In this document: positions 5,811-26,029 of the stretch, piece by piece
Layout of the letters: each line of letters opens with the position of its first letter
How positions within the stretch are numbered: the stretch's first letter is position 1
NCBI GenBank assembly: GCA_028287285.1
Contig: JAQBPY010000324.1
Coordinates: 1-33,440 of the forward strand
Length of the DNA stretch: 33,440 bases
From: Gemmatimonadota bacterium
GTDB lineage: Bacteria; Gemmatimonadota; Gemmatimonadetes; Gemmatimonadales; Gemmatimonadaceae
Direction: 5' to 3'
Program-made: the position numbers and the translations under genes
The notes under the pieces: generated by a model
What the model was told of the DNA's origin: nothing
What the model saw: the letters and a program-made list of their open reading frames with translations, nothing else
Database searches by the model: none

Positions 5811-6688
5811 CGGACGAAAAGAATCGCCGCGGTGAGGGACGCCGGATCTCGGAGCGCAATGCGGACCACGTGCGCGCAGCGATCCGTGACGAACTCGCGA
5901 AGGATGAATCCATCGATGCGGCGCATGCGCCGGACGCCGGAACGCCCGTCGATGCAGCGCCCGTCATCGAGCTCCAGAACGTCTTCCTGGCCTTTGACAC
6001 GCCTATCCTCGAGGATGTCTCGTTCGTTGCGAACAAGGGCGAGACGATCTGCATCGTGGGAGAATCGGGCACGGGCAAGAGCACCACCCTCAAGCTCATT
6101 CTCCGGCTGCTCATTCCGGAAAAGGGCCGCGTCTGCATCGCGGGTAAGGACATCACGCCACTGAGCTTCGTGGAGGCCCTTGGTGTCCGCCAGAAGATGG
6201 GCATGGTATTCCAGGGCGCCGCGCTCTTCGATTCCATGTCGGTGTTCGAGAACGTTGCCTATCCATTGCGGGAGCACACCGACCTCGACGAAGGCGAGAT
6301 CGAGCAGCGCGTGCGCGAGAAGCTGCAGTTCGTCGACCTCGATCCGGACCGCGTCATGGAGCAACTGCCATCCGAGCTCTCCGGCGGCATGCGAAAGCGC
6401 GTCGGCATCGCGCGCGGCATGGCCAACAACCCGGAGATCATGCTCTATGACGAGCCGACGTCGGGACTCGATCCGCTCACCACGGGCACGATCACGCGGC
6501 TCATCATGAAGCTTCAGCACGAGTTGAACGTCACGAGCATGGTGGTCTCGCACGACATCCGGTCCGTGTTCCGCATGGCGACTCGCGTGGCGGTGCTGCA
6601 CGACCGCCGCATTGAATTCTTTGGCACGCCGGAAGAGATGGCCGCCTCCGACGACACTTACCTCCGCGATTTCCTCGGCGGCAATTGA
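5807..6688 (+). CDS. mlaF: MlaF-type ABC transporter ATPase
   Basis: This 293-residue ATP-binding subunit energises the MlaE/MlaD lipid transporter. Walker A is GESGTGKST, the ABC signature is SELSGGMRKR, Walker B is IMLYDEPTSGLDP and the switch histidine lies in VVSHD. The phrase MGMVFQGAALFDSMSVFENV is typical of MlaF proteins. About 45 charged residues precede the ABC domain and are not part of the usual fold. The GTG start at 5807 overlaps the mlaE stop (GTGA), and the stop is followed after one base by the mlaD ATG. The upstream part of this open frame lies inside mlaE and is not coding. Confidence 0.93.
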   Translation: MTDEKNRRGEGRRISERNADHVRAAIRDELAKDESIDAAHAPDAGTPVDAAPVIELQNVFLAFDTPILEDVSFVANKGETICIVGESGTGKSTTLKLILRLLIPEKGRVCIAGKDITPLSFVEALGVRQKMGMVFQGAALFDSMSVFENVAYPLREHTDLDEGEIEQRVREKLQFVDLDPDRVMEQLPSELSGGMRKRVGIARGMANNPEIMLYDEPTSGLDPLTTGTITRLIMKLQHELNVTSMVVSHDIRSVFRMATRVAVLHDRRIEFFGTPEEMAASDDTYLRDFLGGN

Positions 6689-23966: not shown

Positions 23967-24485
23967 TTGCGAATCGTTGCCGGCCAATGGCGCGGACGTC
24001 GGCTCGTCGTGCCCAACGGCGACATCGTGCGCCCCACCGCTGATCGCGTTCGCGAAGCATGGATGAGCATCGTCCAGCCCTGGATTCCCGGCGCCCGCGT
24101 GCTCGACCTGTTCGCCGGCTCCGGTGCGCTGGGCATCGAAGCACTGTCGCGCGGTGCCGGTCACGTCGATTTCGTCGAGACGGCAACACCGAGCCTGAAT
24201 GCCATCGGCGAGAACCTCACCCAGCTTGGCGTGGGATCCGAGGCCAAGGTGCACAAGATGGATGCCTTCACGTTTCTCGACGTGGTTCATGCGGATGCGT
24301 ACGACATTGCCTTTGCCGATCCTCCGTACGACAAGGGCCACGCCGCCAAAATCGCCGAGTTGTGGCTGGCTACGCCCTTTGCGGCCATCCTTGGGGTCGA
24401 GCACAATGCCTGGGAAAAATTGCCGGACGGCGGCGAAAAGCGAAAATACGGCAGCACGGCCATCACGTTTTTTCGCACCCGCTGA
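23967..24485 (+). CDS. rsmD: 16S rRNA (guanine966-N2)-methyltransferase RsmD
   Basis: This 172-residue methyltransferase has the N-terminal MRIVAGQWRGRRL motif, RPTADRVREAWMS, the SAM loop LDLFAGSGALGIEALSRGA and the catalytic DPPY in IAFADPPYD. It methylates G966 of 16S rRNA in the small subunit. The TTG start immediately follows the recJ stop and fits the family's exact N-terminus. rsmD followed by coaD is a widely conserved pair. Confidence 0.95.
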   Translation: MRIVAGQWRGRRLVVPNGDIVRPTADRVREAWMSIVQPWIPGARVLDLFAGSGALGIEALSRGAGHVDFVETATPSLNAIGENLTQLGVGSEAKVHKMDAFTFLDVVHADAYDIAFADPPYDKGHAAKIAELWLATPFAAILGVEHNAWEKLPDGGEKRKYGSTAITFFRTR

Positions 24486-24533
24486 TCGCGGTCACGCGTT
24501 GCGCTTTGGCCCGCACACGTCGATTCTTCCCAC

Positions 24534-25025
24534 GTGCCGAACTCACGCATCGCCATCTACGCAGGCAGCTTCGATCCCATCACCCGTGGGCACGAAGACC
24601 TCATGCATCGCAGCCTGTAATTCGTCGATACGCTGATCGTGGCGGTCGCGATCAATGCCACGAAGCAGCCGCTCTTCACCATCGACGAGCGCGTCGGGAT
24701 GATTCGCTCGTCACTGGGCCACGAGCCCAACATCGAAGTTCGGTCGTTCGGTGGCCTCCTGGTGGATTTTGCCCGAGACGTTGGCGCGTCGCTGCTCATT
24801 CGCGGACTGCGCGCCGTCAGTGACTTCGAGTACGAGTATCAGATGGCGTTGATGAACCGCCACTTGTCGCCGAAGCTCGAGACGGTGTTCATGGTCCCCT
24901 CGCTCGACACCACTTACATCAGCGCGAGCCTCGTGCGCGAAGTGGCGCGCTATGGTGGCAACGTCAAGGACCTCGTGCACCCAACCGTTGCCGAGGCGCT
25001 GCGCGCCAAGCTCGGAACGAAGTGA
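24534..25025 (+). pseudogene. coaD: Phosphopantetheine adenylyltransferase coaD interrupted by in-frame TAA at codon 29
   Basis: The full reading frame would give a 163-residue CoaD, which makes dephospho-CoA from phosphopantetheine and ATP. Codons 6-25 read IAIYAGSFDPITRGHEDLMH, including the nucleotidyltransferase motif TxGH (T17, H20). Codon 29, at 24618-24620, is TAA where relatives usually have Glu or Gln (SL-E/Q-FVDTLIVAV). The same frame then continues through KQPLFTIDERV, LIRGLRAVSDFEYEYQ, YISASLVREVA and HPTVAEAL, all in good family order and with no other defect. Restarting at GTG 24639 would lose the TxGH motif, so no active enzyme is expected. CoaD is normally essential, so a sequencing or assembly error is the first suspect. 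The GTG start at 24534 has TTGCGC-17-GATTCT just upstream. The end overlaps pta by four bases. Confidence 0.88.
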
Positions 25026-26029
25026 GCTTTCTCGAGTCGCTGCACGCACGCGCCGCCGCGCGTAAACGTCGAATCCTGTTCCCCGAGGCCCGAGATCCGC
25101 GCACACGCGAGGCTGTGCGGCGTCTCAAGGACACCGGTGTCGTCGAGCCCGTGCTGGTGGGGACCGAGGCGGATGCGATGGCCGGCATCGAGCTGATCGA
25201 CGTCGATCATCTCGGCTTAACTGCTGAGGTCGCCAGCGAGATTTTCACGCAACGCGCGCCCAAAGGGATGACCCAGGAGCAAGCTGAGCAGCATGCCGTG
25301 CTGCCCTTGCTTGTCGCCAATACGCTCGTTCGCCTGGGCCGCGCGAACGGGTGCGTTGCTGGGGCCGTTCACACTACGGCTGAGGTCGTACGGGCAGCGT
25401 TGTGGATGATCGGCCCCGCTGCAGGGGTGCGGACCATTTCCAGCGCGTTCTACATGGACGTCCCCGCATTTCGTGGGAGTGACGGGGAAGTGCTTACATT
25501 TACAGATTGCGCCGTGGTGCGCAAACCCGTTGCGTCACAGTTGGCGGATATTGCCATTTCTGCGGCCGCCGACCGAAGGCGCATCGTTGGAGACGAGCCG
25601 CGCGTAGCATTCCTGTCGTTCAGCACCAACGGCAGCGGCTCGGGTGAAAGTGTCACTCGCATCCGCGCAGCGGTGGACGAAGTACGGCGCCTCGCGCCCG
25701 AGCTCGTCGTGGACGGAGAATTGCAAGGGGATGCAGCGCTCATCGAGGGGGTGGCGGCTCGCAAGGCGCCGGACAGTCCCATCGCAGGGCATGCGAACGT
25801 GCTCGTGTTCCCGGATCTGGATGCGGGAAACATCGCGTACAAGCTGGTGCAGCGGCTGGCGTCAGCGCGGGCAATCGGACCCATCCTGCAAGGGATGCGT
25901 CATCCTTGCAACGATCTCTCGCGCGGAGCTTCTGCAGAAGACATCTTCAACGTGGCCGCCATCACCGCACTACAGTCGGAAGACCCTGCGGCCACGCTAC
26001 TATCCGGGATCCGCCAGGAGACACGCTAA
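25022..26029 (+). CDS. pta: Phosphate acetyltransferase
   Basis: This 335-residue PTA_PTB-family enzyme interconverts acetyl-CoA and acetyl phosphate. Visible family segments are RILFPEARDPRTREAVRRL, MTQEQAEQ, a VAGAVHTTAEVVRAAL region, AFLSFSTNGSGSGE, VDGELQGDAALI, SPIAGHANVLVFPDLDAGN and GPILQGMRHPCNDLSRG. It is the short form without the regulatory N-terminal domains of E. coli Pta. No ackA lies in the window. The GTG start overlaps the coaD stop (GTGA); its TAA shares a base with the next ATG (TAATG). Confidence 0.93.
   Translation: MSFLESLHARAAARKRRILFPEARDPRTREAVRRLKDTGVVEPVLVGTEADAMAGIELIDVDHLGLTAEVASEIFTQRAPKGMTQEQAEQHAVLPLLVANTLVRLGRANGCVAGAVHTTAEVVRAALWMIGPAAGVRTISSAFYMDVPAFRGSDGEVLTFTDCAVVRKPVASQLADIAISAAADRRRIVGDEPRVAFLSFSTNGSGSGESVTRIRAAVDEVRRLAPELVVDGELQGDAALIEGVAARKAPDSPIAGHANVLVFPDLDAGNIAYKLVQRLASARAIGPILQGMRHPCNDLSRGASAEDIFNVAAITALQSEDPAATLLSGIRQETR

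Follow-up and report, generated by a model that had tools for sequence, protein, structure and literature searches.

A lone in-frame TAA codon in an otherwise ordinary coaD of a fragmentary Gemmatimonadota metagenome assembly

Introduction

Bacteria are generally considered unable to do without phosphopantetheine adenylyltransferase (CoaD), and a stop codon inside its gene raises the question of how the gene is to be understood. The coaD frame analysed here carries a TAA at codon 29, for which the original prediction offered three explanations, namely a sequence error or polymorphism, a loss tolerated through another CoaD, and readthrough of the stop. The window, that is the whole stretch of 33,440 nucleotides that was analysed, is one entire contig (C414) of a 6.1-Mb draft metagenome assembly of a soil-type Gemmatimonadota bacterium, which comprises 441 contigs and has a completeness of 84.49% and a contamination of 3.79%. 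The nearest relatives of the window are Gemmatimonadota, many of them Gemmatimonadaceae, and almost all are metagenome assemblies themselves.

Results

The coaD frame is interrupted once

Translation of 24534-25025 gives VPNSRIAIYAGSFDPITRGHEDLMHRSL*FVDTL...LGTK*, with one internal stop (Table 1). The piece upstream of the TAA includes the tetrapeptide TRGH, which we take to be the nucleotide-binding T-x-G-H motif, and it matches positions 1-22 of the coaD model TIGR01510 with 29.1 bits, a score under the cut-off, which is unsurprising for a fragment of this length. The open reading frame that begins at the GTG at 24639 matches positions 32-154 of the 155 in the model with 137.4 bits (cut-off 103.3). 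By TIGR01510 score, membership in the CoaD family is therefore reached by the downstream frame alone, and the continuous frame that would link the N-terminal nucleotide-binding stretch with the remainder is broken by the TAA at codon 29. When the stop is replaced by X, the frame aligns continuously, from residue 6 to residue 160, to solved phosphopantetheine adenylyltransferases, and coaD thus contains no frameshift; the residues opposite codon 29 in three of these alignments are Ser, Ser and Gln. The N-terminus read from the GTG start, VPNSR, recurs at five of eight congener loci, the other three (L085-L087) having been read in the wrong orientation. A simple consensus scan of 24400-24760 found no sigma-70-like promoter.

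Since a GTG lies 18 bases past the stop and opens a frame of 128 codons, reinitiation at this codon, or the assembly of two separate pieces, might be thought to yield a working split CoaD. This is barely credible, however, as positions 23-31 of TIGR01510 are covered by neither piece, the first piece has only 28 residues, and a stop at codon 29 is absent from all relatives read.

Table 1. Coordinates of coaD, its parts and neighbours, and of the other genes of the host assembly with lone stop codons (positions in the window unless a locus is given)
Feature	Position	Strand	Remarks
rsmD, upstream neighbour of coaD	23967-24485	+	no internal stops
coaD frame (phosphopantetheine adenylyltransferase)	24534-25025	+	GTG start, TGA stop, one internal stop
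Upstream 28 codons of coaD	24534-24617	+	contains the nucleotide-binding T-x-G-H stretch (TRGH)
In-frame TAA, codon 29	24618-24620	+	next base T; GAG (Glu) in 8/8 congeners covering the codon
Downstream open frame	24639-25025	+	from first GTG past the stop; 128 aa, without the N-terminal nucleotide-binding stretch
pta, downstream neighbour of coaD	25022-26029	+	GTGA overlap with the end of coaD; ends with TAA, then T
acs (acetyl-CoA synthetase)	L136:775-2844	+	lone TGA; 3.2-kb contig
RND-family transporter	L127:5-2026	+	lone in-frame TAG near contig start
MFS transporter (weaker case)	L136:1-648	-	lone TAG near contig end; about 15 aligned residues past the stop
Chromate-transporter-like domain (weaker case)	L137:6124-6600	+	split by TGA; both halves below Pfam cut-off

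Codon 29 in related genomes

Codon 29 was surveyed at 90 loci, 78 of which fitted the site pattern, while 12 were unmatched and dropped; L006 and L009, which are not in the count of 78, were read separately later. With the window's own locus (L001) and four contig repeats (L082, L083, L084 and L088) left out of the 78, there are 73 distinct relatives, and none of them has a stop at this codon, so that the comparison with sister genomes proposed originally found a sense codon throughout. All eight congeners that cover the codon (L002-L009) have GAG, encoding Glu, and the ninth (L011) begins downstream of it. Among the pattern-matched relatives the position is occupied by Gly, Glu, Thr, Ser, Gln, Ala, Lys, Val, Arg or His, and it is therefore tolerant.

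The proposal that the TAA arose by a single-base change from GAA or CAA stands in part. Glu is indeed the residue of the genus, but its codon there is GAG, which differs from TAA at two bases, whereas GAA differs at one. This two-base difference would count against one miscalled base, an objection that falls away if the lineage already had GAA. In the 570 modelled genes of the assembly, Glu is encoded 3598 times by GAA and 7525 times by GAG (11123 in total). The simplest path would be a silent change of GAG to GAA in the host lineage and then a single base, miscalled or mutated, that turned GAA into TAA. Loci of the congeners resemble the window in gene order as well, with recJ, rsmD and pta placed around coaD in the same arrangement.

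Selection on coaD and the search for a second copy

With codon 29 left out, the coaD of the window gives a pN/pS of 0.177 in comparison with nine relatives, of which one is partial; the relatives compared with one another give 0.209. The corresponding pairs of values are 0.254 and 0.265 for recJ (8 relatives), 0.344 and 0.348 for rsmD (8 relatives), and 0.325 and 0.369 for pta (9 relatives). This parity indicates that selection maintained a full-length CoaD in the usual way up to recent times, and may do so today, although a very recent loss of coaD would leave the parity intact. An old pseudogene is ruled out, as neither raised non-synonymous change nor a frameshift is found. The original description of coaD as intact on both sides of the stop, in one frame and otherwise undecayed is therefore borne out by the translation, the TIGR01510 matches, the unbroken alignment to solved enzymes and the pN/pS values.

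A real and recent nonsense mutation could nevertheless have inactivated the gene, the loss being tolerated through an unseen CoaD or salvage, or the allele belonging to a minority or dying strain. A search of the host assembly with the coaD frame found one CoaD match and no second CoaD. PF01467 matched at four places, coaD and three other nucleotidyltransferases; the latter are excluded as CoaD, since they score above the cut-offs of the nadD, ribF and rfaE domain II (rfaE2) models. The idea that loss is tolerated through another CoaD thus found no backing in this assembly of about 84% completeness, although a second copy could have been missed, because some 15% of the genome may be absent and the contigs shorter than 3 kb are apparently masked (10 of the 10 stretches checked are all N). 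Lone nonsense codons in other genes of the assembly (see below) also agree with an inactivating allele. Against it, each of the ten genomes of the genus, the host included, has one CoaD match, the constraint on coaD equals that of the relatives (a measure blind to very recent loss), and there is the presumed essentiality of the enzyme. Matches to the other two coenzyme A genes that were sought, coaBC and coaE, are free of stops, and the coenzyme A pathway therefore looks retained. On balance, such an allele is possible but unlikely.

Use of TAA as a terminator

The frame past the stop is conserved, as would be required if a suppressor tRNA or the sequence context allowed readthrough and the production of full-length CoaD. 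The same TAA-T context, however, terminates pta, the gene that follows coaD, and TAA terminates 81 of the 570 modelled genes of the assembly (modelled by codon score and not individually verified). TAA is accordingly in use as a terminator, contrary to what reassignment or suppression would demand, and a recoding of this codon is ruled out, in keeping with the original view that TAA is a genuine stop elsewhere. In 30 tRNA loci, 80 stretches of contig sequence and the window, which together cover a part of the 46 tRNA matches, none of the tRNAs has the anticodon TTA or CTA. As there is also no stop at codon 29 in any relative read, readthrough is very improbable, and the suggestion that the coaD stop is read through did not gain support. 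Improbable to a still higher degree is a variant in which a genuine, fixed TAA is read through at a low, regulated level to yield full-length CoaD, so that termination efficiency would set the supply of coenzyme A.

The short contigs C264, C270 and C224 of the host assembly (G000) carry recurring tRNA matches with identical scores, and two kinds of tRNA are found on both C264 and C270 with different spacing, which hints at repeated or redundant tRNA loci.

Insertion of selenocysteine at the coaD stop is ruled out, as selenocysteine uses TGA and the stop is TAA. The host assembly contains a gene for a formate-dehydrogenase-like molybdopterin oxidoreductase (L105:5422-7497, + strand) with an in-frame TGA at 5818, presumably the site at which formate dehydrogenases carry selenocysteine, and a tRNA-SeC lies on a different contig (L104, c10292-10386). 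Given these two observations, the host genome probably makes selenoproteins by means of TGA, a use that has no bearing on the TAA of coaD. In the congener G001, frames of ArsM-like methyltransferase and AhpD-like type (families named by eye) contain in-frame TGA codons on contig C9 near 99172 and 230550 (0-based), and these sites look like selenocysteine sites.

Lone stop codons elsewhere in the assembly

Lone stops were sought by a codon-score scan of 916,330 bases of the host assembly including the window, of which 888,744 (about 889 kb) are readable. The scan returned 45 candidates, among them the coaD stop and two other sites in the window; by eye, most of the 45 are places where one gene stops and another starts behind it, or are ambiguous. 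Pfam was applied to ten pieces, namely both sides of the acs, RND, chromate-transporter-like and formate-dehydrogenase-like cases, one side of the MFS case, and one open reading frame that matched no family. Clear lone stops in other conserved genes amount to two, a TGA in acs and a TAG in the RND-family transporter, both with Pfam matches above cut-off on either side of the stop. The chromate-transporter-like and MFS cases are weaker (Table 1), the latter coming from a tblastn comparison and standing outside the 45 scan candidates. Two of these four cases, acs and MFS, sit on one short contig.

The downstream piece of acs shares 86-91% identity with its best congener matches, and that of the RND gene 83-87%. 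These best matches are free of stops, and their frames remain open upstream except at contig ends, mostly over at least 600 codons. The site of the acs stop is a sense codon at two of three congener loci, the third not fitting the pattern, and that of the RND stop is a sense codon at all three loci examined; three weak congener matches do contain a stop. As controls, two congeners were scanned in the same way and inspected by eye. In 768 kb of G001, one interrupted IstB-like gene was found along with the two selenocysteine-like TGA cases described above, and one interrupted RidA-like gene turned up in the roughly 255 kb of G009 that are readable, all of these control cases being named by eye only. 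In a survey of ABC_tran, no stop was seen among the matches listed, 16 of which are from the host assembly; because these were the best matches only, the survey was not used as a rate. The stop-free ABC_tran matches, the weak congener matches with a stop and the interrupted genes of the two controls speak against a raised nonsense rate in the host assembly. With such low background counts, an excess of nonsense codons there is suggested and not proven.

Near-identical duplicate contigs, which would point to mixed strains, were sought with blastn, and none of at least 200 bases at 90% identity was found in the window and the readable stretches; the ten short contigs in this comparison are all N.

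Discussion

This is an ordinary coaD, and the lone nonsense codon belongs to the deposited consensus. Two accounts together are very probable for this TAA in a fragmentary metagenome assembly: the consensus is in error, or the codon is a private nonsense allele of very recent origin; the tentative weight given to the allele forms part of that joint judgement. Taken singly, a base-calling, consensus or strain-mixing error is the most likely account and, in our assessment, a probable one; the very recent private allele, carried in the sampled population, comes next. The original suggestion of an error or a polymorphism is hence supported: the frame is not decaying, no relative read has the stop, and other lone nonsense codons are present in the assembly. 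We infer that a functional sense codon occupies 24618-24620 in the living population. None of the remaining accounts, be it readthrough, an enzyme in two pieces or a second CoaD out of sight, has positive evidence behind it, and the stop most likely does not represent a new way of reading genes.

If the TAA is an error, as seems likely, the case calls to mind that reads and congeners should be consulted before any lone stop in a core gene of a draft genome is taken as evidence of gene loss or recoding. A real TAA that is read through would make this a remarkable example of an essential enzyme produced across a TAA stop.

With respect to known systems, the coaD frame fits the CoaD family (TIGR01510; PF01467) except at codon 29, and differs from it by one TAA, placed at a position that varies among relatives. 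Draft metagenome assemblies commonly contain lone stops, and the coaD case resembles them, as well as recent pseudogenes, in having a single stop with no other decay, which is absent in relatives and is accompanied by comparable lone stops elsewhere in the host assembly. It differs from such cases in that the stop hits a gene present in one copy and regarded as essential, and for this reason an error is favored over loss of the gene.
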